Of a DNA stretch of 20,835 nucleotides, positions 834 through 19,867 are shown piece after piece. A model generated the notes under the pieces. The model ran no database searches. It was not told where the DNA came from and saw only the letters and a program-made list of their open reading frames with translations. The DNA is taken from IMG/VR virus record IMGVR_UViG_3300032249_001208, positions 1 to 20,835 of that record. One strand, given 5' to 3'. Each line of letters begins with the position of its first letter. The first letter of the stretch is position 1. Source of the stretch: a virus. The position numbers were made by a program, and so were the translations under genes.

Positions 834-1096
834 CTAGTGTAGCACGTTCGCGGCTAACAGGACAAGCCCGACGACCAGGGCGGCGATAGATAGGGTTGGC
901 TCGTTGATGGAAGAGGCAAGCACAATGTCCGCAGCGGCAATCGCGAGCCAAGGAAACCTAGGGGTTCTTCCAGATCGGGCAAGACTTCTGCTGTTGCGCC
1001 TGCCACTGCTGAGGCAAGCGCCGTCATTTTCTTTTGGTTTCCGTAGAGGATCACCTCTGCGGAGTCTTCTCGGATGATCCATAAGTTAAATCGCAT
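834..1096 (-). CDS. Small membrane protein, reading frame apparently split
   Basis: Two overlapping minus-strand frames each contain half of a sensible protein. The frame opening with ATG at 1096 reads MRFNLWIIREDSAEVIL and continues well to about position 950 (DLEEPLGFLG), then becomes Leu/Pro/Ser-rich nonsense and stops at 854. The frame ending at 834 is Arg-rich nonsense upstream, but from about 945 it reads PWLAIAAADIVLASS and then a clear membrane segment, TLSIAALVVGLVLLAANVL. Joining them needs a -1 shift near 940-960, where the minus strand has a CCCC run and a TTT run. No canonical X XXY YYZ slippery site fits the frame. So this is either a sequencing indel, a real disruption, or an unusual recoding event. 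The family is unknown. Confidence 0.45.
836..865 (-). promoter_or_regulatory. Promoter upstream of the 375-776 gene
   Basis: On the minus strand TTGTCC (865-860) and TACACT (841-836) are separated by 18 bp, and the -10 is preceded by TGC, giving an extended -10 form TGCTACACT. It overlaps the end of the upstream gene (stop at 834-836). It resembles the TGCTACAAT and TGCTACGCT boxes at 9687 and 7458, which suggests a common phage promoter type. Confidence 0.45.
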
Positions 1097-1107
1097 TTAA
1101 GGCGGTT

Positions 1108-1149
1108 GCGAACAATGGAATACTAGCGTAAATGCCGCGTTGGAAACAA
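1108..1149 (-). promoter_or_regulatory. Promoter/leader element with TTGTTCGC
   Basis: In the 67-nt gap behind the helicase gene the minus strand has TTGTTT (1149-1144), 18 bp, then TAGTAT (1125-1120) preceded by GC, four bases, TTGTTCGC (1115-1108) and, 11 nt later, the ATG at 1096. The same arrangement recurs at 7458-7490 and 9687-9721, on the other strand. The element is therefore probably a promoter with a conserved start region or a translation leader. Confidence 0.5.
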
Positions 1150-1163
1150 GGGCTTAACATTTA

Positions 1164-2606
1164 TTAACTTTTGACGTTGCGTTCGCAGCAGTTGAGCGGC
1201 AGGCCAAGCGCTCGCTCGACTCTCCTACGTTCGCTAGGGCTTAGGCCGTCAGGGTTGCTTGCCCACGGCTTTAGGATCGCGGCAGGAAAATCTCTCTTTT
1301 CGACTAAGTAAAGGTTCCGCCGACAGCAGTTTAGTCGTGCTGTTGCTTTCTGCTCTTCTGGCGTAAGCCTCATGGCCGCCTCCTTCGCCCTGGCCCTCTT
1401 TCCCGTGATCTTGCGCAGCTCAGTGCTATTGCCTTGGGCTAGCTTTGGGGACAGCGGGTTGGCGGGCTTTTCAGGTTTTAAGATAATTAAACCGCTTTCA
1501 TTTTTCGACAAAGGCTTTACTTGAAATTTGACTTTCCCTTCGAGCGTCCAATTTATTGGGTCATCTGGAAGCGGCAAGGATTTCCAGCAGGCACCATGAT
1601 CAATGATAATGGCGATCTTGTTCGGGTTGTTTTTGTCGGCTCGCAGCACTCTGCCAATTAGCTGCTTCCATAGCCTTAAAGACTTGGTAGGCCGGATAAG
1701 CTGTAGGCATACTGCTTCGGGAATGTCTAGTCCTTCGTCTATCAACGCGACGCTAATAACTACCTTCAGTTTGCCATCGCTCAACTCTTCAAAGGCCTTG
1801 TCTCGTTCACCGTCTGAACTATCGCCAAGAATTACTCGTGCTGTTATGCCGGCCTCGTTATATTGCTCTGCTAACTTGTAAGCGTGAGCTTTGCTGACCG
1901 TGACTGATATAGTCGGCTTAAGGTCAGGGTTAAAGCGCAATAAGTCCCTAACAAAGTCTCCGTTGACTTCTACTATCCGCTCTTCTAGTTTTTTTGCGTT
2001 AAAATCTCCGTTGCTTGTCGGGACACCTTCAGTGTCTACTAGCGCATCTCCGCTGTATAATTCGTAATTGCATAACTTTCCTTCTTCGATTAACTGAGCT
2101 GGCTTGAGGCCTAGCAAAAGTTTCGTAATCCCAAACTTGCCCAAGCCTGCCCCAGTGGGCGTTACAGGTGTAGCCGTTGTAATGCCAAAGAAGCTAGGCT
2201 GTATTTCCCTGATAATCTCTTGATAGGATTTTGCGGCCAGGTGGTGTCCTTCGTCAAGAAGAAATACCCTGTTTCGGAACGTCGAGATAGCGTTGCGTCT
2301 CCGTGCTAGAGTTGGCATCATTGTTACCATGATGCCCGCATCTTCCGTCATGCGCTTAGCAGCGTAAAACCCTACAGGTTCTTGGCGGTGCTTTTGGCAG
2401 GAAGCTGCAATTTGCTTGATTATGCTCTTCCTGTGGGCTGCGAGTATCACTTTGTGGCCGTATGAGCGATAGTATCTTGTGATCTCTGCTAGAATGACAG
2501 TTTTGCCAGAACCAGTAGGAGACTCCCCGCAGGGAGCCCCGCCCTGATTCATGTGTTCGATCATTCTCCTGGCCATATCGGCCTGATAGTCATAAAGATC
2601 GAACAT
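1164..2606 (-). CDS. SF2 DEAD/DEAH-type helicase
   Basis: This 480-residue protein is a superfamily 2 helicase of the RAD25/SSL2-like (restriction-type) group, expected to unwind or translocate on nucleic acid using ATP. Visible motifs in order are a Q-motif-like start (YDYQADM, 5-11), Walker A SPTGSGKT (29-36), a DEGH box in place of DEAH (118-121), TATP (motif III, 144-147), the second RecA-like domain with DEGLDIPEAV (motif V), and QLIGRVLRA (motif VI). The final 100 or so residues are basic and carry repeated NCC pairs (RLNCCRRN and LNCCERN), of unknown role. Its ATG follows the TAA of the upstream gene with no spacing, so the two are probably translationally coupled. It likely works in phage replication or recombination together with the primase/ATPase at 4969-7401. 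Confidence 0.9.
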   Translation of the reverse strand: MFDLYDYQADMARRMIEHMNQGGAPCGESPTGSGKTVILAEITRYYRSYGHKVILAAHRKSIIKQIAASCQKHRQEPVGFYAAKRMTEDAGIMVTMMPTLARRRNAISTFRNRVFLLDEGHHLAAKSYQEIIREIQPSFFGITTATPVTPTGAGLGKFGITKLLLGLKPAQLIEEGKLCNYELYSGDALVDTEGVPTSNGDFNAKKLEERIVEVNGDFVRDLLRFNPDLKPTISVTVSKAHAYKLAEQYNEAGITARVILGDSSDGERDKAFEELSDGKLKVVISVALIDEGLDIPEAVCLQLIRPTKSLRLWKQLIGRVLRADKNNPNKIAIIIDHGACWKSLPLPDDPINWTLEGKVKFQVKPLSKNESGLIILKPEKPANPLSPKLAQGNSTELRKITGKRARAKEAAMRLTPEEQKATARLNCCRRNLYLVEKRDFPAAILKPWASNPDGLSPSERRRVERALGLPLNCCERNVKS

Positions 2607-2834
2607 TTAGTCTTTTGCGATGACTTCTTTTTCGCGTCGTGCAATTAAGCTGGGACATTGTCCAGCCTCCCACCCAAAACTGACTTTCCATCCTCCTCTT
2701 TGCAAGTCTTCTCGCAAGTAATCTTCTATGTCTTTCTGCGTGAATACGATCTCTTCTTTGGCCACTGCAGGCTGGATGGAGCTGTCTCTTACGGTTCCTA
2801 TGCTGCGGGGGGCGGGATTGCTTGCGCGTGCCAT
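2607..2834 (-). CDS. Hypothetical protein, 75 aa
   Basis: The ATG at 2834 shares a base with the TGA of the preceding gene (TGATG), which decides the start; a longer frame to 2861 lacks that logic. The N-terminal third is Ala/Ser-rich and probably disordered. The C-terminal half reads DIEDYLREDLQRGGWKVSF and then SLIARREKEVIAKD. The GW-K-V...LIARR pattern is loosely like the first part of restriction-endonuclease-type folds (Mrr-like), but the catalytic E-x-K strand is not there and the protein ends where it would be. I treat that as a weak hint only. It sits directly before the helicase and is probably co-translated with it. Confidence 0.6.
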   Translation of the reverse strand: MARASNPAPRSIGTVRDSSIQPAVAKEEIVFTQKDIEDYLREDLQRGGWKVSFGWEAGQCPSLIARREKEVIAKD

Positions 2835-3226
2835 CACTTTTTCACCGCTTTGGCGGTCCAAGAATTGGCTTTTTCTGCCATTTCGGCTCGGCCGTCAGCT
2901 AGAAAGCTTTCCTCTAGCTTTTTTCTTGCTTCTGTCCAAGCTTCCTTGGCTGCTTCGATTACCTTGAAATAGCTTCCTCCCGGAACTCGGCTCAGTCGGA
3001 TTTTTTGGGTTGACCCATCCGAGAACAGCGCGAGCGAATCGGTTTTTGCGGCTAATGAGCCAACGCGGTAAAAATCCTCACATCTCTCCTTGATTTGAAA
3101 AATTTCCTGCTTGACTGCTTTTTCCTGCTGGAGAAGATAAAGCAGCCTTGCGGCTAGCCGGCTTGCTTCTTCTTGGCCTGGGTTTTGGGGGGAAGGCGGT
3201 TGAGGGCTGTTGCTGGATTGCGTCAT
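2834..3226 (-). CDS. Hypothetical protein with helical segments
   Basis: A 130-residue protein with an ATG start 12 nt after the previous gene's stop. The first 17 residues are Ser/Pro/Gln-rich. Residues of about 18-52 form a likely coiled coil (EEASRLAARLLYLLQQEKAVKQ). A middle region, TQKIRLSRVPGGSYFKVIEA, looks like a small beta hairpin, and the C-terminal 40 residues are a charged helix rich in Ala, Glu and Lys. There is no recognisable enzyme motif. Its stop overlaps the start of the next gene by one base. Confidence 0.6.
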   Translation of the reverse strand: MTQSSNSPQPPSPQNPGQEEASRLAARLLYLLQQEKAVKQEIFQIKERCEDFYRVGSLAAKTDSLALFSDGSTQKIRLSRVPGGSYFKVIEAAKEAWTEARKKLEESFLADGRAEMAEKANSWTAKAVKK

Positions 3227-3238
3227 AGCGTTTGAAGG

Positions 3239-3553
3239 TCAACTCGTTAATCCTAGCACCTCTTTAAGGCGAAAGAGCAGCTCCTGCTTGTTTGAAGCCG
3301 AAAATTTTGTCTTCTCGCTTACAGAGGCGAAATGGTAGCACGAGCCGCCCCAGACCCATTTGACGCATTCAGCGCGACCGATGTGGTAGCCGTCTAGGAA
3401 AACCGGCACGGTTGAGAAGGGGGGAGCTGGGGGGTCCGGCTCTCCCAGGGCCAGCGCCATGGCCAGCCCAACCTCATCTGCCGGGTGAACGCCTCTGGCC
3501 AACTCGCCAAAAGTCGTCATTTCTCCGAAGGAGAGCCGAGATTGGTCCGTCAT
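3239..3553 (-). CDS. Hypothetical protein, about 104 aa
   Basis: I place the start at the ATG at 3553 (MTDQSRLSF). A TTG at 3571 would add six residues but lies only a few bases from where a weak -10-like TACACT (3588-3583) would begin transcription. No Shine-Dalgarno sequence is seen at either. Features include a Pro-rich stretch (EPDPPAPPF) near residue 45 and a more ordered C-terminal half containing VPVFLDGYHIGRAECVKWVW. The family is unknown. The 41-60 bp gap before it, AT-rich compared with its neighbours, is one of the few places in this operon where a secondary promoter could sit. Confidence 0.55.
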   Translation of the reverse strand: MTDQSRLSFGEMTTFGELARGVHPADEVGLAMALALGEPDPPAPPFSTVPVFLDGYHIGRAECVKWVWGGSCYHFASVSEKTKFSASNKQELLFRLKEVLGLTS

Positions 3554-3612
3554 TTGATGATGGAATTTCAATAAAATTAAAAAGTGTAGAAAATTGCTGA
3601 ACGGACCAGCTT

Positions 3613-3963
3613 TTATGGCATGGACGCCCCCTTTTTGGCGTCCGCATAGAGAGCAGCGAACTGCTCTGGAGTCATTACAACCCTAAATCCAGCCCTGTTT
3701 AAGCGAATCATGGTGATCGCCCAGCGAGTTCCGCGATTGATTCTTTGCTGTTCTGCCCCCTTGGGCTTGATTCTGATAGCGGACAATACGTCCGCCCAGA
3801 ATGCGACCTGGACAGTCAGGTCAGGGAGGCCGTCGATGTCTCCTTGATCATCCTTCCTGCCGGCTCCCAGCTCGCGTCGCGCAGTGTGACCAGTGAGTTC
3901 TGAAAGCAGCTCGGCCGCTTCGCGCTCTGCACGGTCGCCCTTGTTTTTGGCTGGGTTGCTCAT
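3613..3963 (-). CDS. PD-(D/E)XK resolvase-like protein, catalytic motif altered
   Basis: The 116-residue protein has the overall layout of the small phage Holliday-junction-resolvase-like nucleases: NKGDRAEREAAELL at the start, a basic RRELGAGRKDD stretch, GDIDGLPDL carrying the metal-binding Asp, and a C-terminal WAITMIRL...GFRVVMTPEQF region. In active relatives the strand after GDI-x-G carries E-x-K; here it reads LTVQVAFWAD, so Glu is Gln and Lys is Ala. I checked this against the codons (CAG GTC GCA). The protein may therefore bind DNA without cutting, or use other residues. Its ATG overlaps the upstream stop as ATGA. A 7-bp hairpin (3622-3628 with 3637-3643) lies across its last codons. 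The fold is inferred from motifs alone. Confidence 0.6.
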   Translation of the reverse strand: MSNPAKNKGDRAEREAAELLSELTGHTARRELGAGRKDDQGDIDGLPDLTVQVAFWADVLSAIRIKPKGAEQQRINRGTRWAITMIRLNRAGFRVVMTPEQFAALYADAKKGASMP

Positions 3964-4169
3964 GCTGGATCAGGTATGGAGAATTTACCCTTGCGATGCT
4001 TTAGCCAGCGTGAAGCCGTTTTAGCGCTTTTTTCGTGCTCCTGCGCTATTGCAAGGCACATTGCTTCGTTTTCGGGCTTCCCTGTTTTGCGAAAATACGC
4101 CGCCCTGCAGTTCTCCCAGCGCTGCGCCTTTCGGTGATATTCCGTAGTGCGGGTAGTTACCTTGGTCAT
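3960..4169 (-). CDS. Small basic protein, possible HTH
   Basis: A 69-residue basic protein starting with ATG at 4169, which overlaps the upstream TGA by one base. A Shine-Dalgarno GGAGG lies 7 nt before the ATG. Residues of about 32-58 (ENEAMCLAIAQEH, then SAKTASRWLKHRK) could fold as two helices of a helix-turn-helix, with the second as a basic recognition helix. That would suit a small DNA-binding protein, but the match is only by pattern. Its stop overlaps the resolvase-like gene as ATGA. Confidence 0.6.
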   Translation of the reverse strand: MTKVTTRTTEYHRKAQRWENCRAAYFRKTGKPENEAMCLAIAQEHEKSAKTASRWLKHRKGKFSIPDPA

Positions 4170-4606
4170 CAGTGGCCCTCCGTAGTTTTCCGGGGGGCAG
4201 GTCGCTTCAGGTCGGCTTCTGTTTTTTTGCGCTCGCCTTGGGCTTCTTTGCTTTTGGCCTGGTCTTCTTCTTGGGGTTCTGATACTTCTGGAATGACACT
4301 GGGTTGTGGGAAGGGTGAGGCTGGGATAGTTTTGAGATGCTCGATAGACCGAGCAAGCCGGCGGCAGGCAGCGTTTTGCTCTTTAAGCATTCTGCTGTTT
4401 TCCTGGACCATGGCTGCGCGACACTCTTCAAAAGTGTCAAACAGCCTCACCTCGGAAAAGGTGTGACCAGCCCGGCCAAACTTTTTGACTCTTAGATCGT
4501 AAACAGATAGCTTGTGCTCGCTGTCCAGCAGCGCTGGCAGTGGCGCCATGCCTTCAGGATCCCGAGCCCAAACCTGTCTTAGGTCGCTAGGAATGGTGTC
4601 GCTCAT
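4169..4606 (-). CDS. Hypothetical protein with coiled coil and charged tail
   Basis: The ATG at 4606 has a strong GGAGG upstream and overlaps the TGA of the small gene before it (ATGA). The 145-residue product has an ordered N-terminal half (KLSVYDLRVKKFGRAGHTF, then EVRLFDTFEECRAAM), a probable helix/coiled coil from about 60 to 92, and a disordered Pro/Lys/Glu-rich tail of about 50 residues. I do not recognise the family. Its place as the second gene of the leftward operon suggests early expression. Confidence 0.6.
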   Translation of the reverse strand: MSDTIPSDLRQVWARDPEGMAPLPALLDSEHKLSVYDLRVKKFGRAGHTFSEVRLFDTFEECRAAMVQENSRMLKEQNAACRRLARSIEHLKTIPASPFPQPSVIPEVSEPQEEDQAKSKEAQGERKKTEADLKRPAPRKTTEGH

Positions 4607-4779
4607 TTGCGCCTCCGTGTGGCAGGTTTACGAACGTTTGCTTTGGGGGTGGCCGCCTTGGGGGCTTCCTTGGCAGCCCTTTTTTCTGCGCTCCATGCAA
4701 CAGCGTCTTTTACTGCGCTGTCTCTTCCGGGCGGCGCGGCGATAACGCTTGCCCTTTCGAGCCCTGAACAATCAGGCAA
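4603..4779 (-). CDS. Short basic protein, TTG start, first gene of the leftward operon
   Basis: An open frame ends with the TGA at 4603-4605, overlapping the next gene's ATG as ATGA. It has no ATG or GTG, but two adjacent TTG codons occur at 4782 and 4779, and AAAGGA (4792-4787) lies 7 nt before the second, a good ribosome-binding distance. The 58-residue product opens with PDCSGLERASVIAAPPG and ends in an Ala/Lys/Arg-rich tail (PKANVRKPATRRRK). The -10 box TACAAT at 4811-4806 puts the RNA start just ahead of the ribosome site. The basic tail could contact nucleic acid. No family is recognised; the gene is short and rests on context. Confidence 0.5.
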   Translation of the reverse strand: MPDCSGLERASVIAAPPGRDSAVKDAVAWSAEKRAAKEAPKAATPKANVRKPATRRRK

Positions 4780-4804
4780 CAATGGATCCTTTGCGATGCC
4801 AGCC

Positions 4805-4835
4805 CATTGTAGCGCTTAGCATGTACGCTACAATG
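4805..4835. promoter_or_regulatory. Divergent overlapping promoters within an inverted repeat
   Basis: Ten-base arms CATTGTAGCG (4805-4814) and CGCTACAATG (4826-4835) are perfect inverted copies separated by 11 bp. Each arm contains TACAAT, a near-consensus -10, reading outward: minus strand at 4811-4806 and plus strand at 4829-4834. With a 16-bp spacer, TTGTAG serves as a poor -35 for each, so each promoter's -35 overlaps the other's -10. They would drive the leftward operon (first start 4779) and the rightward replication gene (start 4969). The symmetry also suits binding by a dimeric regulator. Confidence 0.6.
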
Positions 4836-4869
4836 TGACAGTCGCGGAAACTGGCACACTCCTCCAAGC

Positions 4870-4884
4870 GTGCCATAGTGGCAC
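4870..4884. promoter_or_regulatory. Operator-like palindrome
   Basis: GTGCCA-TAG-TGGCAC is a perfect 6-bp inverted repeat with a 3-bp centre, located in the 5' leader downstream of the rightward -10 box. It has the size and symmetry of a repressor site. No second copy was noticed in the window and no binding protein can be assigned. Confidence 0.3.
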
Positions 4885-4898
4885 AGCGCCCACGGCGC

Positions 4899-4938
4899 AA
4901 AAAAAGGGGCTGGGCGCCTCTGACGCACCCAGCCCCTT
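4899..4938 (-). terminator. Rho-independent terminator, leftward
   Basis: An 11-bp perfect stem (4904-4914 with 4928-4938) with a 13-nt loop is followed on the minus strand by a run of Ts (4905-4899). It would stop transcripts moving leftward into the divergent promoter region. In the other direction it is only a stable hairpin in the leader of the 4969 gene. It could shield the early promoters from leftward late transcripts running antisense through 10342-4969. Confidence 0.65.
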
Positions 4939-4968
4939 GTTGACCATTGTTAGCCTGACAATTCTACC

Positions 4969-7401
4969 ATGCAGCACAAGTGGCAGCCCTCCTCTCGCCG
5001 CAACCCGTGCCCAATTTGCGGCAGGACTAGCGATGGAGACTGCAGGATCAGGGATGATGAGCAAATGGTTCTATGCCATCGAGGCAAGAGCTTGGGGCCG
5101 CCCCCCGACCTGAAGGTCGGGGGGCTGATGGATGTCGTGGGCAGAACATGGGCCTACGCTGGAGACTCCGAAGACGGGCGGGGAGCGGTGTTTGTGGTTC
5201 ACGAGGAGAAGGTTGACGACCACCTGCCATCGTGCGGCCCGTTGCGCCTACCTACGCCGGCATTTGCTGTTAAAGACCAGAGAGAAACTGTTGCTACCAC
5301 GTATTACTACCGGCAAGATTTGAGGGTGGTTAGATATGATTATGTCGAGGGCGGGAAAAAAGATTTTTCAGCACAATTCTTTTCCGGCGATACCTGGAGG
5401 TCCAGCGCTGGCCCCGAAATATGGCCATTCTACGGATCTATTGGGGCAAATTCAAGCAATTTTATCATAGAGGTTGAGGGCGAAAAATGCGTTGACGTTT
5501 TACGAGCCAATGGCATTGCTGCGATAACGCATCCCGGCCACCAGCGGGACGAAGCTTCATGTAGAGCACGATATGCTGGCCTTGCGGCTGCGGGAATTAA
5601 AAAAGTTTGCTTTATATCTGATAACGATGTTGCCGGCAGGAGAAAAGCTGTTGCCTTCTCTGCCGCAGCTCAGCTTGCCAAAATTGAATTTTGCGTTATT
5701 CCTGCTGAGTCTATTTATGACGTTCCAGACGGCGGGAGCGTTGACGACATGCCGGCAGAAAATCTCTCTTTTTTAATAACAGCAGCCATCAAATCAGCGT
5801 CTGGCGTGAAGCCGGCGCCGCTCAATCGGATCAGTTATGGCAAGATAAAGCAAGATTTGCAGGATTTTTACGAAACGGAGCCTACCGGGGCTGCAAACAT
5901 TCAAGCCGCAATCGCGGACATCGCGTCCGCTAACAATGCCTCCGTATTCGACACCAAGCGTATATGGGATTCGCTGTCAGAGGATCGCCAGGCCACGTCT
6001 GAGGCGTTGTCCGCGACATCGGCCATATTCCAGCGACGAGAGCTTGAGACTAAGAGAGAAAGCGTAAATCTTTCTGACTATTTGCCGGAGTCAATATGTG
6101 GTGCCGTAGCAGAGTTGACCAGGAACTTGGCGTGCGACCCACTGATTGCCGCCTCCGTGGTCCTGACTACTGCTGCTGGCGTGTTTCAAGCTGGCCACCG
6201 GCTCGATGCTGGGGATGGCATGTTTGTGAAGCAGCCCGTAATCTGGTTGCTTTTGGCTGGCCCGTCCGGGAGCGGGAAGAGCCCCATTATGCGGCAGCTA
6301 TGCAAGGATCGCCTTAGCCTTGTGCTAAGCCACTATGATTTTCTTAGTAAAAGCGAAAAAGCTGAATATGACATGCGATATCTCGGAGTGGCGAAGGGGG
6401 CGAGGCCCGAAGAGCCTAAACCTTTAGAGACTTGCGTTGAAAACTTTACAACTGAATCTTTGACCGAGATTCTTGTTGACAATCATGCCAAGGGCTTGTC
6501 AACTTTTATCTATTCTGAGGAGATCAAAAGAGTCCTTGGAAACTTTGATGAGTACAAATCTCACGGCAAAGGCAGCGGCAAAGAAACATTTTTGTGTCTT
6601 TTCGACGGCAACGTGCCTTCGTCGCTGCGCATTGGCCGGCGGCTGAGGGGGAACAGCGGGAAAGTTCAAAACTCCCTCCTGGGAGGTGTTCAGCCGGGCG
6701 TATTTCGTACGATGGTGGAATATGGTGACGACGCCGGCTTGTTTGCCAGGTGCCTTGTAGTGCCATTGATAAACAAATATATCGAGCCCAATTTCTTTCG
6801 TTCGCCGGACGAGGTTACTGCTGTCCACATGGCGGGGCAGTGCCTGGAAAGCTTTTATCTGCGCTGCCTTGGCTTGAGGCCTCTTGTGCTACGGCTTGAA
6901 AGAGAGGCTGTCGAGTTGTTCACTATTTTGTCACGCGACACTTACGATAAGAGCCAGGCGGTATCTTTGGAGTCTCAGCGAGCTGTCTTTGGCAAACGGC
7001 TTGGATACGTGCTTCAGGTTGCCTTGACCATGCACCTATGCCGCGTTGTGGCTGGAGAGGAAAGGGGAGACGAGCTGTTCCTGTCTCGCCAAACCTTGGC
7101 CAGAGCAACTGTATTGGTTGACCTGCTGCAGAGCTATGCAGTCCTGGAGCAGCAGGAATCCCAGATGACCAGGCACGGATCTTTCGACTTGAACCGGAGA
7201 ATCCACACTTACGCCAAAGGCGTCAACGGCTGCAGCGCATCAGTTTTCGTCTCTCAATGCGTGCCGGCAAGGTACAGAAAGGAAATTTTGCCTACTCACG
7301 TCAAGGCTGCAATGGCACAGCTAGTTGATATGGGGCTGGGGGAATGGCGCCGAGAAGGCCGAGCAGCAGTTTTTGTTGCGCTAGGGCGCTTCCCAGATTA
7401 A
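4969..7401 (+). CDS. Zinc-ribbon/TOPRIM/DUF3987 replication protein (primase-helicase type)
   Basis: This 810-residue protein combines primase-like and ATPase parts. Residues 13-37 hold CPIC...C...LCHRG, a zinc-ribbon like those at the start of DnaG-type primases. Residues 165-225 resemble a TOPRIM domain, with IIEVEGEK (166-173) and SDNDVAGRR (217-225), including the D-x-D pair. The C-terminal half matches the DUF3987 family: YLPESICGAVAEL, then Walker A GPSGSGKS (431-438), a Walker B-like TFIYSEE (512-518), and LGGVQPGVFRTMVE (571-584). It probably makes primers and unwinds DNA for phage replication. The start at 4969 is needed to include the zinc ligands; no Shine-Dalgarno sequence is seen. 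It is the first gene of the rightward block, with a leader of about 130 nt. Confidence 0.85.
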   Translation: MQHKWQPSSRRNPCPICGRTSDGDCRIRDDEQMVLCHRGKSLGPPPDLKVGGLMDVVGRTWAYAGDSEDGRGAVFVVHEEKVDDHLPSCGPLRLPTPAFAVKDQRETVATTYYYRQDLRVVRYDYVEGGKKDFSAQFFSGDTWRSSAGPEIWPFYGSIGANSSNFIIEVEGEKCVDVLRANGIAAITHPGHQRDEASCRARYAGLAAAGIKKVCFISDNDVAGRRKAVAFSAAAQLAKIEFCVIPAESIYDVPDGGSVDDMPAENLSFLITAAIKSASGVKPAPLNRISYGKIKQDLQDFYETEPTGAANIQAAIADIASANNASVFDTKRIWDSLSEDRQATSEALSATSAIFQRRELETKRESVNLSDYLPESICGAVAELTRNLACDPLIAASVVLTTAAGVFQAGHRLDAGDGMFVKQPVIWLLLAGPSGSGKSPIMRQLCKDRLSLVLSHYDFLSKSEKAEYDMRYLGVAKGARPEEPKPLETCVENFTTESLTEILVDNHAKGLSTFIYSEEIKRVLGNFDEYKSHGKGSGKETFLCLFDGNVPSSLRIGRRLRGNSGKVQNSLLGGVQPGVFRTMVEYGDDAGLFARCLVVPLINKYIEPNFFRSPDEVTAVHMAGQCLESFYLRCLGLRPLVLRLEREAVELFTILSRDTYDKSQAVSLESQRAVFGKRLGYVLQVALTMHLCRVVAGEERGDELFLSRQTLARATVLVDLLQSYAVLEQQESQMTRHGSFDLNRRIHTYAKGVNGCSASVFVSQCVPARYRKEILPTHVKAAMAQLVDMGLGEWRREGRAAVFVALGRFPD

Positions 7402-7443
7402 GGGCTTGGGCAAAAGCGCCAAGCTTGCAACGCTTGCCCTTAA
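7398..7443. repeat. Nested inverted repeat in an intergenic gap
   Basis: TTAAGGGC (7398-7405) and GCCCTTAA (7436-7443) are perfect 8-bp arms. Between them CTTGG (7405-7409) pairs with CCAAG (7419-7423). The left arm covers the stop codon of the primase gene. No T-run follows on either strand, so this is not a standard terminator; it could be an RNA-processing or 3'-end protecting structure ahead of the promoter at 7458. Confidence 0.4.
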
Positions 7444-7457
7444 AACCGTCCTCCCTG

Positions 7458-7478
7458 TGCTACGCTTCTCTTGTTCGC
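7458..7478 (+). promoter_or_regulatory. Promoter/leader element with TTGTTCGC
   Basis: TGC-TACGCT (7458-7466) is an extended -10-like box with no good -35. After four bases comes TTGTTCGC (7471-7478), then nine bases to the ATG at 7488. It matches the arrangements at 1108-1127 (minus) and 9687-9708 (plus). It would give the recombination cassette its own transcript. Confidence 0.5.
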
Positions 7479-7487
7479 CCGCCTCTT

Positions 7488-8171
7488 ATGACGCGCTCCG
7501 CTCCAGACCAACACCCGCCTACTCCCATGGCATCTCTGCCGACTGGGCAGCTGCCTCCGATGGTTGCTCAGCCCGTAGCGCCAGCCCTGCACTCTTCGGC
7601 TGGCCTTGACAACCTTTCTCTTTTGGGGCGAATTGCTGCGGCTACTCCGCAATTCCAGCACCTTACTAAGGACACTGAGAACACGTTTCTCAAGAGCAGT
7701 TACCTCAAGTTGCCTTCGCTATTGGACGCGATCAGGGAGCCGCTTTTGGAGTACGGAGTAAAGGTCTATAGTCAGGGTTGCTTCGCTGACGGCCAGTGGC
7801 TTGTTAGGACAACGCTTTCCACTCTCGACGGAGGAGAAGAGTTGAGTAGCGACTTTCCCATCGTGGGCGAAGGGCTTACAATGCAAAAGGTCGCTGGTTG
7901 TTTCACGCTCGGGACGCGCTACAATTTGTTTGCGCTACTTAACATCTGCCCAGACTCAGGAGATGACGACGGAAACGTCGGCAATTCTTCTGCTTTTGCT
8001 TCTGGTCATTCCTTACCCGGCCTTGGGGCGCCCCAGCCTCAGCCGCCCCAGCAGTTCGCTCAGTCACTCCATCCCCAGCAGTACGCTCAGCCTTATCCTC
8101 AGCAGTTTGCTCAGGCGGCCCAGCCTGGCGCTATTGCCTACCCCGTAAACCCTCTCCCCGTCCTCTCGTGA
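7488..8171 (+). CDS. erf: ERF-family single-strand annealing protein
   Basis: The 227-residue product has the ERF recombinase pattern: SYLKLPSLLDAIREPLLEYGVKVYS (71-95), LVRTTLSTLDGGEE (105-118), MQKVAGCFTLGTRYNLFALLNI (132-153) and the closing acidic SGDDDGN (157-163). ERF proteins anneal complementary single strands for phage recombination and genome circularisation or repair. I start at the ATG at 7488, since upstream residues in this frame overlap the primase gene and are not protein-like, and a promoter element lies just before. The first 38 residues are Pro/Ala-rich. Beyond 175 is a low-complexity tail with QQFAQ, QQYAQ and QQFAQ, a motif repeated in the next gene. The stop overlaps the next start (GTGA). 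Confidence 0.85.
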   Translation: MTRSAPDQHPPTPMASLPTGQLPPMVAQPVAPALHSSAGLDNLSLLGRIAAATPQFQHLTKDTENTFLKSSYLKLPSLLDAIREPLLEYGVKVYSQGCFADGQWLVRTTLSTLDGGEELSSDFPIVGEGLTMQKVAGCFTLGTRYNLFALLNICPDSGDDDGNVGNSSAFASGHSLPGLGAPQPQPPQQFAQSLHPQQYAQPYPQQFAQAAQPGAIAYPVNPLPVLS

Positions 8172-8806
8172 CACAGTTTCCGCAGCAATCGCAACGTACC
8201 TACCGGCCTAATAGGTCTGCTTTGTGGGTCAACAACAAGAAGAATGCGAACCAGCCTGACTACAAGGGCAATGTTGAAATTTCTTACGGCTTGCTCCAGG
8301 AAATGTTGGCTGCTTTCAATGCAGGCCGATACCAGAAAGACTCAGGGGATCAGCCCTGTATCAAGCTGGATTTTGCCCTTTATGCACAGCAGGGGGGCAC
8401 GTCTCAGGGCGGCAAGCAAAAACCAATTTTGAGCGGCTATCTTAGCTCCGTCCAAGATACTGAGCAAAGCGCGGCTGCCAGGCAGCAGTACGCCCAAGCT
8501 CTTCAGCCGCCTCAGCAGTACGCTCAGCCGCCTCAGCAGTACGCTCAGCCGCCTCAGCAGTACGCTCAGCCGCCTCAGCAGTACGCTCAGCCGCCTCAGC
8601 AGGGGTACGTTGAGCCAGTCCAGCATCAGCCAGTCCAGCATCAGCAGCTTCCTCAGGGGTATGCCCAAGCTCAGCCTTTGCCGGCCTACTCGGGCCAGTA
8701 TCAGCCGGCCCAGGCGCCCGACCTGATGCCTCCGCCGGTTGTTCCGCCTGTCCCGATGCCTGGAGCCATTCACGGTCAGCATCCGCAACTTCCTGGGAAT
8801 TTCTGA
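8168..8806 (+). CDS. Candidate ssDNA-binding protein with QQYAQ repeat tail
   Basis: The start is GTG at 8168, overlapping the ERF stop as GTGA. The 212-residue product has a compact N-terminal part (about 12-92), beginning RSALWVNNKKNANQPDYKG, followed by short beta-type segments (CIKLDFALYAQQ, KPILSGYLS). The aromatic/Asn/Lys then PDYKG pattern resembles the start of small OB-fold, ssDNA-binding-like phage and plasmid proteins, so I propose an SSB role, helped by its place between an annealing protein and an exonuclease. This is not proven. Residues 93-212 are a disordered Gln/Pro tail with five PPQQYAQ-type repeats, then VQHQP duplicated, and PPVVPPVP. Bacterial SSBs also carry flexible tails that recruit partners, but the acidic tip is missing here. 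Confidence 0.65.
   Translation: MTQFPQQSQRTYRPNRSALWVNNKKNANQPDYKGNVEISYGLLQEMLAAFNAGRYQKDSGDQPCIKLDFALYAQQGGTSQGGKQKPILSGYLSSVQDTEQSAAARQQYAQALQPPQQYAQPPQQYAQPPQQYAQPPQQYAQPPQQGYVEPVQHQPVQHQQLPQGYAQAQPLPAYSGQYQPAQAPDLMPPPVVPPVPMPGAIHGQHPQLPGNF
8507..8602 (+). repeat. 21-bp tandem repeat, four copies plus a partial
   Basis: Four identical 21-bp units lie end to end at 8507-8527, 8528-8548, 8549-8569 and 8570-8590, with the first 12 bp of a fifth to 8602. Each encodes one PPQQYAQ heptapeptide in the tail of the SSB-like protein. Identical codons across copies imply recent expansion by slippage or recombination, so copy number may vary between isolates. Confidence 0.95.
8616..8645 (+). repeat. 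15-bp tandem duplication
   Basis: The 15-bp unit CAGTCCAGCATCAGC occurs twice in a row (8616-8630 and 8631-8645), encoding a doubled VQHQP/Q motif just after the QQYAQ repeats. It appears to be a second, independent expansion in the same tail. Confidence 0.9.
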
Positions 8807-9681
8807 TGCCTGAATTGTGCCTTTTGCCCCCGCAAGGGGGCGTTTTTTTCAGCGAACAGGATCACAGGTATTTTTGGAGAGGCCAGACAGAGGTAGAGGT
8901 TCCGTCCTCTTCGCACATTATTGATTTGGGTGGCGGCAAGGATTTTAACAAAGATCCCTGGCAGAGATCCCTAATGCGCAGGGGGCTCAGCGAGTCCGGG
9001 GCTCACTATTTTATGGAGCGTGTTAGGGACATACGAGCCGCGATCGGCACGGAGGTTCACGGGCACATTCAAACCCATCTTATTTACGGGGTGGAGCCGA
9101 CCAGATCAAGCGAAAGCGAAAAGATTTTTAGTTCATGGCTGAAACATGTTTATCCGAGAATTGGCAAAATTTATATTATTGAGCAGCCAATGATTCACGT
9201 TGGCGGCGTGTATGGATTCACTCCAGACCTGATTGCTGAAGTGGACGGAGTGCTTACAGGTTGCGATTGGAAGTCGAACCAGATGGAGAGCTTTGCAGAG
9301 CGCTATCAGCGCCTGGTTGATTACGCTCCTGAAGATGAAATACTGAGGGGAATTTGCGATCACCTGGCTAAGGTCGATGCGGCGGCCGGCAGAACGCGAG
9401 AAAAAACCGCTCGCGTTCGCTCGGGCTGGCAAATGCAGCAGGGGAGCTACGCCATGGGCGTAGAGGCGGTCAGGGGAGGGCTCCGCGTGCAACGGGGCAT
9501 CAATTTCATGCTCTCTGTCGATGGCGTTGCTGAGCATACCTGGAACCGGGCAGACTTGGATCAAGGATGGCTTCAGTTTGCCAATGGGCTGCTGCTGCAC
9601 CATCAAAGAGCCGTTATGGCTGGCACACATTCCGTTTTTCGCATGGCGCTTGATGCGCTTTGCCCATTGATGCGGCGTTGA
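8806..9681 (+). CDS. PD-(D/E)XK exonuclease, RecB/Cas4-like
   Basis: This 291-residue protein carries the full motif set of the RecB/Cas4-type phage exonucleases: GTEVHG with His85, a Glu in IIEQP (126), YGFTPD with Asp141, DWKS with Asp154 and Lys156, and QQGSYAMG (Q211...Y215). It should resect DNA ends to make single strands for the ERF protein. An insert of about 50 residues, rich in Arg, Asp and Glu, lies between DWK and the Q-x3-Y motif. The ATG overlaps the upstream TGA (TGATG). The conserved fold starts near residue 15 (FSEQDHRYFW), so the first codons are a short lead-in, and these contain a terminator hairpin (8826-8849). A 9-bp inverted repeat (9392-9400/9410-9418) lies in the insert. 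Confidence 0.85.
   Translation: MPELCLLPPQGGVFFSEQDHRYFWRGQTEVEVPSSSHIIDLGGGKDFNKDPWQRSLMRRGLSESGAHYFMERVRDIRAAIGTEVHGHIQTHLIYGVEPTRSSESEKIFSSWLKHVYPRIGKIYIIEQPMIHVGGVYGFTPDLIAEVDGVLTGCDWKSNQMESFAERYQRLVDYAPEDEILRGICDHLAKVDAAAGRTREKTARVRSGWQMQQGSYAMGVEAVRGGLRVQRGINFMLSVDGVAEHTWNRADLDQGWLQFANGLLLHHQRAVMAGTHSVFRMALDALCPLMRR
8826..8849 (+). terminator. Intragenic terminator-like hairpin in the exonuclease gene
   Basis: GCCCCC (8826-8831), a GCAA tetraloop (8832-8835), GGGGGC (8836-8841), one G and then seven Ts (8843-8849). This is a textbook rightward intrinsic terminator, but it sits within codons 7-15 of the nuclease. It could lower nuclease mRNA relative to the two genes upstream, with translating ribosomes preventing the hairpin. 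Confidence 0.65.
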
Positions 9682-9708
9682 TCATCTGCTACAATCCTTT
9701 TTGTTCGC
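9667..9708 (+). promoter_or_regulatory. Promoter with TTGTTCGC leader for the AbrB-like gene
   Basis: TTGATG (9667-9672), a 17-bp spacer, then TACAAT (9690-9695) preceded by TGC, making an extended -10. Five bases later is TTGTTCGC (9701-9708), and ten bases after that the ATG at 9719. This is the best sigma-70-like promoter in the window and the clearest of three copies of the element. Confidence 0.65.
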
Positions 9709-9718
9709 ACCCAGTTCG

Positions 9719-10342
9719 ATGCCTGTCAAACGCGCACCAAAGGCTGTTGAAGCCGTCTCCGTTCCCGCTCCCGTTTTTGCCCCCTCTCCTGTTCTTGCTT
9801 CCACCATTACGGCGCAGGAGGGGCTCACAATGGATGAGGTGTCCTTTTTGCCTGAGGAGGGCGATGAGAGCGATGAGAGCGAAGAAGCAGTTGGCCCCGC
9901 AACACGACTGACCGGCCAAGAGCTGCTTCAGGCCTATAGCGCCGGCCTCGAAGAGCAGCGGCCTTACACCGAAATCGCGAGAAATGCTGGCTATGTCAGC
10001 GTAACCGCTGCCGGCAAGGAGCGCGTCATGGTCGCTCAGTTCAACGCAGCGCTGCTTCGCGCTGAGGGGCACGAGGTTGGCAGCAGCAGTGGCGGAACCG
10101 GGCGGCCGCATCTTGGGCTTTCCCAGGCACGGGTGAGCGCTCAAGGGACGCTCCTTGTCAGCCAGCTCGCCACTCGGCACATCGAGGCCCTCCCTGGCGA
10201 CTGCTTTGCTGTCACCTATCCCGGCAACGGCCAAATTCTCTTGACGCCAACGGGGGAAAATAAGCCGGTGGCGCCTCGGAAAAAGCGGGGAGAGGGATCC
10301 GAGGAGCAGCCTGGTACTCCACTGCTTGATTCGCTTGATTGA
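9719..10342 (+). CDS. cyAbrB-like transcriptional regulator
   Basis: The 207-residue protein has the arrangement of cyanobacterial AbrB-type regulators. LTGQELLQAYSAG (64-76), TEIARNAGYVSVTAAGKERV (84-103) and QFNAALLRAEG (107-117) match their N-terminal half. ARVSAQGTLLVS (137-148), EALPGDCFAVTY (156-167) and GQILLTP (171-177) match an AbrB-type beta domain. In cyanobacteria such proteins bind DNA broadly and control nitrogen, carbon and redox genes. Ahead of the core is a 60-residue Pro/Ala-rich then acidic region (PEEGDESDESEE), and the C-terminus is basic then acidic. I start at the ATG at 9719; an in-frame TTG at 9701 lies at the predicted RNA start. It has its own promoter and is followed by a terminator. 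Confidence 0.75.
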   Translation: MPVKRAPKAVEAVSVPAPVFAPSPVLASTITAQEGLTMDEVSFLPEEGDESDESEEAVGPATRLTGQELLQAYSAGLEEQRPYTEIARNAGYVSVTAAGKERVMVAQFNAALLRAEGHEVGSSSGGTGRPHLGLSQARVSAQGTLLVSQLATRHIEALPGDCFAVTYPGNGQILLTPTGENKPVAPRKKRGEGSEEQPGTPLLDSLD

Positions 10343-14287: not shown

Positions 14288-15357
14288 CAGGAAGGGAGCG
14301 TCCAGGTAAGGGGCACGCTAGCGAGAAAGTGCGCTGAAGCCCCATCGGTCACGATAGGGTTGTTTGCAAATTGCAAAACTGCCCACTTTGTTAAACCGTT
14401 TGGAGTATTGAACTGGTCTCCGTATGCAGATGTATTGTCTGCATAATGGAAATAGATGCCAAAATCTGAAGCCAGCCTCGTTGGGGTAAAAGGCAGCCAG
14501 CCCATATCGCTAACTATTGGAACGTAGTCTGTCAGGAATGCTCCATTGACAGACGCCTTCCCGATTGGGAGCAGGAACGCTGACCCGTTGAACCCCGTAA
14601 ATATGTTGGTAAGGTTATTGCTTGTATTGTTAGGTGCGCTACCTACCGCTGCATAGCATTGCGTGTTAAGCGCAATACCATGATATCTTCCAATGCCGCT
14701 GCCGTCAACGTCTGATCGCAAAGCGCTGCCAGTTATTAAGCACCTTCGCAAGTTTTCCTGAAGCTGGAAACTGACTGCTCCCATGTTGGCATAAGTAAAC
14801 GCTGCGATTGTTGCGAACCCGTTCAAAAGCCCCTTAGAAAGATCAACCCATGGCTGCAAGATTGTGTTTTGGTGCATAATTGTGAAAGGCGCCGATCTGT
14901 TCAAGCCCTGCCGGATCACGAACCAGCTTTGGTTGGTGTCAAATCCTGACGTGTAGCGATCCAGGTGGATAGCAGTATTCGTTTGCGGATTAAACGAAAC
15001 TCGACTTGCAGTCTGGTTCGACCCTGCGCCATTTACAAGTGAAGGCAAAGTGTGATAATCCAAGTATTGCGTGCCGGTCGGCACCTTGGTAGTAGTATTC
15101 CACCCGCTTGCTAGAGCTATTCCTGGAGAATCGCTGCCTCTAAAAACAAGATAATAAAACGTGGTGCCATAGGTCTTGGTGGAGTCGTAAGCGGTCCGTA
15201 AAACGCGGACCGTGTTGCTCTCGGTCACAAACTGATCGTGCCATCCACCTGCCGCCATCAGGCCGGCATCGGCAAAGGCAGCCCCAAACAAGCTGTCGGC
15301 CAGCGCTGCTTGAGTCCAGCCGGCGGGGAGAGAGTATGTTGCAACGCTGACGACCAT
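14287..15357 (-). CDS. Phage structural protein of unknown role
   Basis: The 356-residue protein begins ATYSLPAGWTQAALADSLFG and is rich in Ser, Thr, Asn, Gly and aromatics, with many beta-type stretches and no low-complexity repeats. This composition is typical of extracellular virion proteins. I cannot name a family. It lies between the tail-tip genes and a tail-tube-like gene, so a tail-tip, receptor-binding or decoration role is likely. The start has AGGA five bases upstream and follows a 63-bp gap, the longest gap among these late genes. Confidence 0.65.
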   Translation of the reverse strand: MVVSVATYSLPAGWTQAALADSLFGAAFADAGLMAAGGWHDQFVTESNTVRVLRTAYDSTKTYGTTFYYLVFRGSDSPGIALASGWNTTTKVPTGTQYLDYHTLPSLVNGAGSNQTASRVSFNPQTNTAIHLDRYTSGFDTNQSWFVIRQGLNRSAPFTIMHQNTILQPWVDLSKGLLNGFATIAAFTYANMGAVSFQLQENLRRCLITGSALRSDVDGSGIGRYHGIALNTQCYAAVGSAPNNTSNNLTNIFTGFNGSAFLLPIGKASVNGAFLTDYVPIVSDMGWLPFTPTRLASDFGIYFHYADNTSAYGDQFNTPNGLTKWAVLQFANNPIVTDGASAHFLASVPLTWTLPS

Positions 15358-15420
15358 TTCAGTCCTGCCGGCTTGCCCAGCTTAGCCCATGGAGCACTGG
15401 CCGCGCTCGCTCGCAGAAAA

Positions 15421-16092
15421 TTATCTAGTTGCTATCACGCTAATCTGCAGGCTTGCTCCCAGGCTGATAACCTCTTGCGCCTCTCTTTGACGGCCAAGCC
15501 TGCTGGTCGTGGCTGTTGTGCTTACAACGCCAAGAACCTGAGAAGACGCCAAGCCTAAAAGAAGCGAGGCAGTTCGCTGCCTGGGGGCTCTGGTAGTGGC
15601 AACAGGTATCGCCACCACTGTTATCACAGAGGAGTTCATAAGGCGCAATGGTATATCGGTCGTTTTTGGCGCCACTGGGTTGCCAGGGCCATAAACAGAG
15701 TCAAGCGTGAGTTCGTACGCCAGCTCGATAGTTACGTTATATCTGCCTCTCATCACGGGATCCTTTTTCGGCGCTCTGGCCATGGTCCAGGTAGTCCCCG
15801 TAAGGCGCAGCCTAAAACTTTCGCTATCAACGCCGCCCGCAATTTCGGGCGGCAACACCGAAAGAGGCCACTGCCCCATCCCGGTAGCTCGCCATGGCAG
15901 CAGCAGCGCAAGCGCCTCGGAGTCGCTCATGTTTTCAAAAAACAAGCGCCACTGAGAATCGCTTGGCAAAGAGCCCAGGATTTCTGGAAAAGCTGAAGAC
16001 CCCCAGCTATTTGTGATTACAGGATAGCTGGGTAGCCGCAATTCCCACGATGTCGGAGTAATCGCCGGCAGCGTAATTGAGCGTATTGTCAT
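15421..16092 (-). CDS. Tail-tip protein, paralogue of its upstream neighbour
   Basis: The first 130 or so residues share a layout with the 16089-16499 product: LPAITPT at the start, LFFENMSDSEALALLLPW in the middle, LPPEIAGGVDSE, then a TTWTMA strand and an R-x-NV strand. That points to duplication of one domain. The C-terminal 85 or so residues are unique to this copy, rich in Thr, Ser, Ala and Arg (TTRAPRQRTASLLLG). I infer a minor tail or baseplate-type role from position after the J-like hub. Its ATG overlaps the preceding stop as ATGA. Confidence 0.65.
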   Translation of the reverse strand: MTIRSITLPAITPTSWELRLPSYPVITNSWGSSAFPEILGSLPSDSQWRLFFENMSDSEALALLLPWRATGMGQWPLSVLPPEIAGGVDSESFRLRLTGTTWTMARAPKKDPVMRGRYNVTIELAYELTLDSVYGPGNPVAPKTTDIPLRLMNSSVITVVAIPVATTRAPRQRTASLLLGLASSQVLGVVSTTATTSRLGRQREAQEVISLGASLQISVIATR

Positions 16093-19400: not shown

Positions 19401-19867
19401 GCTGCGCCGGCAAGAAAGATTCCGCGAAACATGAGCGACCCATTGTGGGCCAGTACCTGAGACCACAACAGCGGCATAGCGACTCGCACGCCGCCCAGGT
19501 TGTTTTCTCGCTTTGCCACCACCACTGGCACAACTTGGCCGACTTTGGCCGGTTCTTGGATTGAGCTGAATCCAAATCGCGGCGACATTCGCTGCCCTGT
19601 TGTGGAAGGGCCGCCACCGTCTCTTTTTACAGTGATACTGCTCTGCCTTCTAGCAGGTGAAGCAGGAAACAGCAGTGACGACAAAAGGCTCAGCCCAACA
19701 GATACCGCCAAATTGACAACCACGGGAACCAGCGGCCCGCACACTGGCCCCTCTGCTGGCCTTTCAAGCGACCGCTGCAGCGTAATCGCCTTCCACTCAG
19801 CGCAAACCTCCTCAGATACGCCCAGGATTTCGGCGAGGCGCTTTTCGTAGGGCAGGAGAGGAATCAT
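16496..19867 (-). CDS. Tail-tip hub / central tail protein (lambda J-like)
   Basis: At 1,123 residues this is the largest protein in the window. It follows L-like and NlpC/K-like genes, as the host-specificity protein J does in lambda-like phages. Near the N-terminus is a hydrophobic segment (VVVNLAVSVGLSLLSSLLFP), seen in many J-like proteins. The centre has a long beta-rich region (KVGQVVPVVVAKRENNLGG onward), and the C-terminal third has hub-like segments (AIDAACYFIRFVTLHDHRIS, then LRSGNFFKLDIDVTKYN). It likely forms the tail tip, binds the host and passes DNA. I choose the ATG at 19867, which overlaps the upstream stop as ATGA, over a TTG at 19897. Confidence 0.8.
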   Translation of the reverse strand: MIPLLPYEKRLAEILGVSEEVCAEWKAITLQRSLERPAEGPVCGPLVPVVVNLAVSVGLSLLSSLLFPASPARRQSSITVKRDGGGPSTTGQRMSPRFGFSSIQEPAKVGQVVPVVVAKRENNLGGVRVAMPLLWSQVLAHNGSLMFRGIFLAGAASMSQDAWDPRGWAFGNNTLGAYAYTGAGITRGSRYSIYYSRNGGRIVSGDLIAGREAAFDPGNFQNSGGEDVFSVSTGVGQYKTAFCMTETPSTSTAFGLYGWCPNAMMHRATVQIQPTVVARVDEDDKVRTDDDASALVEIWKGKFYWSMRSGLRQRKAAGSSGWTTPASQQFEVKEEAVNVGDSLMYVISRTTDAETKIRFDTSNTRIVDNDASSDEEQRGVAASVAGIQNSADSALIPNELYRIGTCWAVLTERLPHNAGETIFISDSEQEPIGGGNSMDYVFTVVRPGSVHFIGPGLLDPPEGDSTITPPEYNPNSDLATLLSGTEGRYRVCSQAAQIFRMAVASIGAVREFKTSEIIIKSRVGINVSGMTGFGSCEKIERINEKAGQKQVGKTAGGRLTVSRYDSSGSLVTTKTRRYSAFVAEYSADRGVTWTTFPEVFAVDGIATEDVYNYLRWSFPSYKRWERRLVPISSWEIRKNGLARIVVLDTNSNQEVSTTAGGLTISTTGYAINPTEGVRRKMAHLEPKVNIGLGWADNEYQSMFDGYARFAEAFCYDNVQASVRNAPEHEITHINYYDDEVTPSYESLSIPGVNISASLEMQSLAAFSGFCNNGYEMPRLLDGDTKGPSHLFPDWLRERMTSAGLGADPLTQAAQIDRASFQEAAQWCQDRMYFYDAVEEEPENVLEWAADAALAHLLKLVRIGGVYHLKKAIEFDRPLDIKGQFNNGNISEKAFRLDSVGYLDRQPFIVQVKWREETGGLEAPLFPRERVATVRQVGTSVNAPVKTLDLSKWCTNYKQAIDAACYFIRFVTLHDHRISLATTPDLLLSELRSGNFFKLDIDVTKYNTAIQGFIQKDGNIVSTRPDFVPSRDGYYPGLVWDMRGEPQERDIVIIGGLAEPRGYFFAIANNISRQRTYEIKKVNISTRGVITINAFHHPVNENGMSLLGVNWTTYQTDANWIIEL

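Follow-up and report, generated by a model that had tools for sequence, protein, structure and literature searches.

In bacterial promoters of the sigma-70 type, the modal transcription start lies 7 bp after the -10 element, at a purine with a pyrimidine before it (PMC5730371). An extended -10 is able to stand in for the -35 (PMC5730371; PMC10911233), and the sequence around +1 affects both start choice and escape (PMC5730371, PMC10911233). The -35 consensus is commonly absent from cyanobacterial promoters (PMC3219970), and the -10-only promoters of S. elongatus and Prochlorococcus MED4 combine a clear -10 and a purine start with the lack of a -35 consensus (PMC3219970, PMC6091082). For S. elongatus UTEX 2973, 52.3% of starts are A and 35.6% are G. 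Our literature search found nothing on phage initiating sequences in cyanobacteria.

The candidate phage promoters described here are similar to extended -10 sigma-70 promoters (TGnTAnnnT) in their TG and TANNNT, their weak or absent -35 and a predicted purine start 7 bp on. Unlike extended -10 promoters generally, however, those of this phage clade repeat TT(C/G) at +2 to +4 across gene families. They likewise resemble the cyanobacterial -10-only promoters, but favour G followed by T, unlike the starts of S. elongatus UTEX 2973. While the E. coli core recognition element favours a G just after the start, the phage class has its G at +1, followed by T, and its likeness to the initially transcribed sequence is one of position around +1, the function of the phage element being predicted. 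As such, these findings sharpen known sigma-70 promoter biology and do not constitute a new kind of system.

The viral record and its probable host

The window, i.e. the whole stretch of DNA that was analysed, is a linear piece of viral DNA, 20,835 bases long, and comprises the entire record; its wider genome can be checked only via relatives. It encodes an SF2 helicase, a DUF3987 primase-helicase-like protein, an ERF annealing protein, an exonuclease, an AbrB-like protein and a probable single-strand binding protein with a Q-rich tail. Tandem QQYAQPP-like repeats end both this last protein (8480-8610) and the ERF protein (8030-8120). Among cultured phages no match was found for the primase-like, exonuclease and AbrB-like proteins, nor for the DNA of the block, and the helicase has distant matches only (identity below 60%). 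The sole cultured-phage match of the large tail protein is a weak one (27%), to the freshwater Synechococcus phage S-LBS1. Among 14 control genomes, the AbrB-like family was matched only in Synechococcus elongatus. Together with the S-LBS1 match, this makes a cyanobacterial host likely, while the search for related loci in genomes confirmed no particular host.

Three octamer sites

A sequence-only reading of the window had described a repeated element at 1094-9721. Three sites do lie inside these coordinates, but the span is a mere range and not one element. Upon re-reading, all three arrangements of GC-TA-N3-T, TTGTTCGC and ATG proved exact, and the genes behind them are indeed unrelated: one codes for an ERF annealing protein, another for an AbrB-like protein, and the third is a small ORF whose membrane segment is split between frames. 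The features are as follows.

1127-1094, minus: arrangement of GCTAGTAT (1127-1120), TCCA, TTGTTCGC (1115-1108), 11 nt, ATG (1096-1094)
1120..1127, minus: -10-like box GCTAGTAT without TG extension, candidate promoter of the small membrane-protein ORF(s); box retained in the closest relative
1108..1115, minus: TTGTTCGC, predicted +1 at G 1113, the 7th base after the -10
854..1096, minus: small ORF behind this site, with the conserved N-terminus MRFNLW
7459-7490, plus: arrangement of GCTACGCT (7459-7466), TCTC, TTGTTCGC (7471-7478), 9 nt, ATG (7488)
7458..7466, plus: extended -10 TGCTACGCT, candidate promoter of ERF; extended -10 and leader also found in relatives
7471..7478, plus: TTGTTCGC in the ERF leader, predicted +1 at G 7473
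7488..8171, plus: gene of the ERF-family single-strand annealing protein (PF04404, 4e-6; phrog_155, 5e-15)
9688-9721, plus: arrangement of GCTACAAT (9688-9695), CCTTT, TTGTTCGC (9701-9708), 10 nt, ATG (9719)
9687..9695, plus: extended -10 TGCTACAAT, candidate promoter of the AbrB-like gene; -10 conserved in all relatives
9701..9708, plus: TTGTTCGC in the AbrB-like leader, predicted +1 at G 9703, the 8th base after the -10
9719..10342, plus: AbrB-like gene (cyanobacterial family PF14250, weak match)

All three sites have a TANNNT box in non-coding DNA upstream of a gene. The ERF and AbrB-like sites carry a TG one base ahead of it; the minus-strand site does not, reading CGCTAGTAT where the extension would stand. 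The conserved G is found at 7 bp from the box, except at the AbrB-like site, where it lies at 8 bp, one base off the modal register; this site also has a -35-like hexamer, TTGATG, at 9667-9672 (plus strand) with a spacer of 17. The three sites would be separate sigma-70-type promoters, two of them with a TG extension. Transcription would begin 7-8 bases past the -10, with the G of TTGTTCGC as its first base, and the predicted leaders would read GUUCGC-N9-11-AUG.

The box by itself (GCTANNNT) occurs at chance frequency in the record, with 35 copies found versus 35.3 expected. The octamer is weakly above chance, with four copies versus a mean of 1.1 (at least four in 2 of 100 shuffles); three of these lie in the leaders and the fourth, at 18581 (plus strand), falls within a long minus-strand structural gene. 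In contrast to these single counts, three leaders with a common 8-mer in a register within one base were reached by none of 400,000 shuffles, and the same arrangement with a common 7-mer by three of 400,000. This joint arrangement is not due to chance.

Behind the minus-strand site, the small membrane protein (834-1096) is spread over two overlapping frames, its membrane segment lying in the frame at 834-1082 (minus strand). Two related loci (L004 and L007) retain this layout of a conserved N-terminus in one frame and a membrane segment in a second, so that overlapping genes or a frameshift seem more likely than an error of sequencing.

A predicted start-site motif in the clade

Candidate promoters were chosen blind to the octamer, by a regular expression: a box of the form TG.TA...T or G[CG]TA...T had to lie in non-coding DNA, between 10 and 64 bases ahead of a called gene start on the same strand, with gene calls from a simple in-house model. 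The first set drew on 16 records and comprised 238 promoters, which belong to 83 protein families. GTT(C/G) stood at offset 6 in 27 of these promoters and at any other offset in 0-3; counted by family, the figures were 9 of 83 and 0-3. When the ERF and AbrB families, which had given rise to the question, were left out, 18 promoters in 8 families still had GTT(C/G) at offset 6, a number that none of 20,000 family-wise rotations, in which orthologues were kept together, could reach (maximum 6). Three relatives fetched afterwards, one of which (G023) has some genes in common with an earlier record (G015), gave 7 of 44 at offset 6 and 0-1 elsewhere. With all 24 records pooled, 36 of 298 promoters have a GTT(C/G) whose first base is the seventh after the -10, and they represent 13 of 96 families; other offsets have 0-6 promoters and 0-4 families. 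In random phages, at control loci picked with the reversed octamer, the count at offset 6 was 1 of 73; this set replaced an earlier random-phage control that included octamer-selected loci and was thereby biased upwards at offsets 6-7. Three records at a greater distance (G024-G026, with primases 30-33% identical) gave 0 of 10, a small sample.

Sequence, register and recurrence are in this way observed directly, and the proposal that phage promoters of one class have an initiating sequence in common is supported, GTT(C/G) being concentrated at one offset. The idea of a chosen gene set has to be given up, as class members are functionally mixed and include recombination, sliding-clamp-like and late-region genes. 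Where a G occupies position 7, T follows it in 48% of families and a second G in only 8%, and the leader beyond is poor in G. Sharp conservation fades after about +4, and outside the window leaders have little in common beyond that point. The class-wide unit is G(+1)TT(C/G), often preceded by T.

Could the motif instead be a tag at the 5' end of the RNA (GUUCGC or GUUS), acting on the stability or translation of selected messages? Such a tag would give a register identical to that of a promoter element, and its predicted position, at the extreme 5' end of short leaders in which no Shine-Dalgarno sequence is evident, would suit it, as would the eight bases common to the three leaders of the window. 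However, these leaders fold no more stably than their shuffles and match no Rfam family, sharp conservation fades past about +4, and the genes concerned are of mixed function. Furthermore, the distance from +1 to the ATG ranges from 15 to 33 in the pooled set while that from the -10 to +1 is fixed, which ties the element to the start of transcription and not to translation. We regard an RNA tag as unlikely.

The families are not fully independent of one another, since copied cassettes are common to some members of the class. A near-identical promoter-leader, CGCTATGCTtacattgttcaaccaacaac, precedes differing short ORFs in four relatives (G009 at 35081, G013 at 42398, G015 at 26131, and G023), consistent with copied accessory-gene cassettes. 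A second, longer promoter-leader, close to GTGCCATTCATGCGCTATTGTATGGGRGCATTCATTCAAGAGGCATTC-ATG, is found ahead of several short ORFs of the accessory region that are unrelated to one another, and has no convincing match in cultured phages. Its sites (loci L166-L204) are as follows.

G001, about 14945-15700: GTGCCATTCATGCGCTATTGTATGGGRGCATTCATTCAAGAGGCATTC-like cassette
G003, about 19530-19860: GTGCCATTCATGCGCTATTGTATGGGRGCATTCATTCAAGAGGCATTC-like cassette
G005, about 42586-42667: GTGCCATTCATGCGCTATTGTATGGGRGCATTCATTCAAGAGGCATTC-like cassette
G009, about 28660-29147: GTGCCATTCATGCGCTATTGTATGGGRGCATTCATTCAAGAGGCATTC-like cassette
G011, about 42194: GTGCCATTCATGCGCTATTGTATGGGRGCATTCATTCAAGAGGCATTC-like cassette
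G015, about 33782-34167: GTGCCATTCATGCGCTATTGTATGGGRGCATTCATTCAAGAGGCATTC-like cassette

Since relatives do carry such cassettes ahead of different genes, the three sites of the window might also have arisen by copying of promoter cassettes between loci, with an octamer that has no selected function. Their flanks differ, though, leaving the -10 pattern and the octamer as the only common part, and for two of the sites relatives have orthologous promoters, which have diverged to different degrees. We therefore hold copying to be decidedly unlikely as the source of these sites.

The octamer in relatives and in the viral collection

Through the exonuclease, 21 loci were gathered as relatives. The closest, a sister record (G001) whose exonuclease is 96% identical, retains all three octamers, while in the 19 other relative records searched TTGTTCGC was not found after a -10 box; one of the relatives (G002) carries TCCATTGTTCG at the promoter of a different gene. 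Among orthologues of ERF, the extended -10 is retained, followed mostly by GTTC or GTCC at the identical offset. Orthologues of the AbrB-like gene retain the -10 as well, with leaders that mostly begin with GTNNCGCATTC or similar and mostly lack GTT, and upstream of the membrane-protein homologue no comparable promoter was seen in three loci (L006-L008). As orthologous leaders differ gene by gene among relatives, the three sites have different histories. Across the viral collection, the octamer gave 59 matches, fewer than the 81 of its reversed control, which rules out TTGTTCGC as a wide phage signature.

Judging from these comparisons, the full octamer is a local version within the lineage of this record and its sister, and its final GC may partly be coincidental. 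The sequence-only reading, which took all eight bases as the signature of the class, had thus sensed a real promoter feature with too long a signature: the octamer holds for the record and its sister, and the core that extends to the clade is GTT(C/G).

These leaders also bear on whether the octamer is an operator that overlaps the start site and serves a regulator of the phage, for instance the AbrB-like protein. One copy precedes the AbrB-like gene itself, which would suit autoregulation. Conversely, dyad symmetry and a paired half-site are absent, the common core amounts to about four bases, and orthologous AbrB leaders mostly lack it. An operator is in our opinion highly improbable.

Probable reading by the host RNA polymerase

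While S-LBS1 and S-CBS1 each encode a sigma factor, a domain search whose positive controls worked detected no Sigma70 r2/r4 domains in ten relatives, and tblastn with the sigma factor of S-LBS1 found no phage sigma factor. A search for single-subunit RNA polymerases matched none of the control genomes, and so came without a positive control. The absence of a sigma-70 domain from the ten relatives makes the host RNA polymerase the likely reader. Furthermore, since starts at the seventh base are standard for sigma-70, the class is assigned to the sigma-70 type, often with a TG-extended -10; the best -35 match of its promoters is 1-5 of 6, mostly 3-4.

The signature of the class would be TG(C)TANNNT, six bases and G(+1)TT(C/G), used ahead of many unrelated genes. 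As far as sequence can tell, this comprises two separable layers: a general one, in which position 7 and the purine at +1 would follow normal sigma-70 rules, and a clade-specific one, in which TT(C/G) at +2 to +4 would be the clade's added preference. The most likely role of the element would be to fix the start site and to ease initiation or escape where the -35 is weak or absent. We infer a start at this G, reading by the host RNA polymerase and a role in initiation, and we consider it probable that each of the three sites is a promoter in its own right, of the host-sigma-70 type, and belongs to a clade-wide class that starts at GTT(C/G) and in which the motif has its role in the promoter.

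It is quite conceivable, however, that the GTT(C/G) start is an ordinary promoter style of the host cyanobacterium that the phage has copied, without a phage-specific class. This overlaps with the reading above, the sole difference being whose preference GTT(C/G) is. It is in keeping with a register that obeys general sigma-70 rules, with ten relatives in which no sigma factor was found, and with the cyanobacterial host that the S-LBS1 match and the AbrB-like family make likely. Against this, GTT(C/G) at the offset was found in 0 of 26 candidate promoters of three cyanobacterial plasmids and in 0 of 6 of the cyanophages S-LBS1 and S-CBS1, both being small samples that do not come from the host. 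A more far-reaching proposal is that a fixed 5' GUU(C/G) serves the clade as a mark of its transcripts, recognised by a factor that the phage encodes or modifies; acting on RNA polymerase or on RNA during infection, this factor would favour phage genes over those of the host. We deem this very unlikely.

Under the preferred reading of a clade-wide promoter class, transcription starts are predicted at base resolution for an uncultivated clade that has no close cultured relative and probably infects cyanobacteria. It also provides a natural case of bases directly past +1 recurring over unrelated genes. Were the preference specific to the phage, it would illustrate how initiation can be shaped by a phage that lacks a sigma factor of its own; if it is a trait of the host, the promoter model of that host would be refined.

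Elsewhere in the window, two identical GCTACAAT boxes face outward between divergent operons at 4806-4834, 13 bases apart. In each case the seventh base past the box is a G, and the sister record retains the pair. The interval that separates the rightward promoter from the start of the primase gene (4904-4962) contains a strong leftward terminator-like hairpin of 14 pairs with a T-rich tail, and also an imperfect palindrome, ATTGTTAGCCTGACAAT, at 4946-4962.
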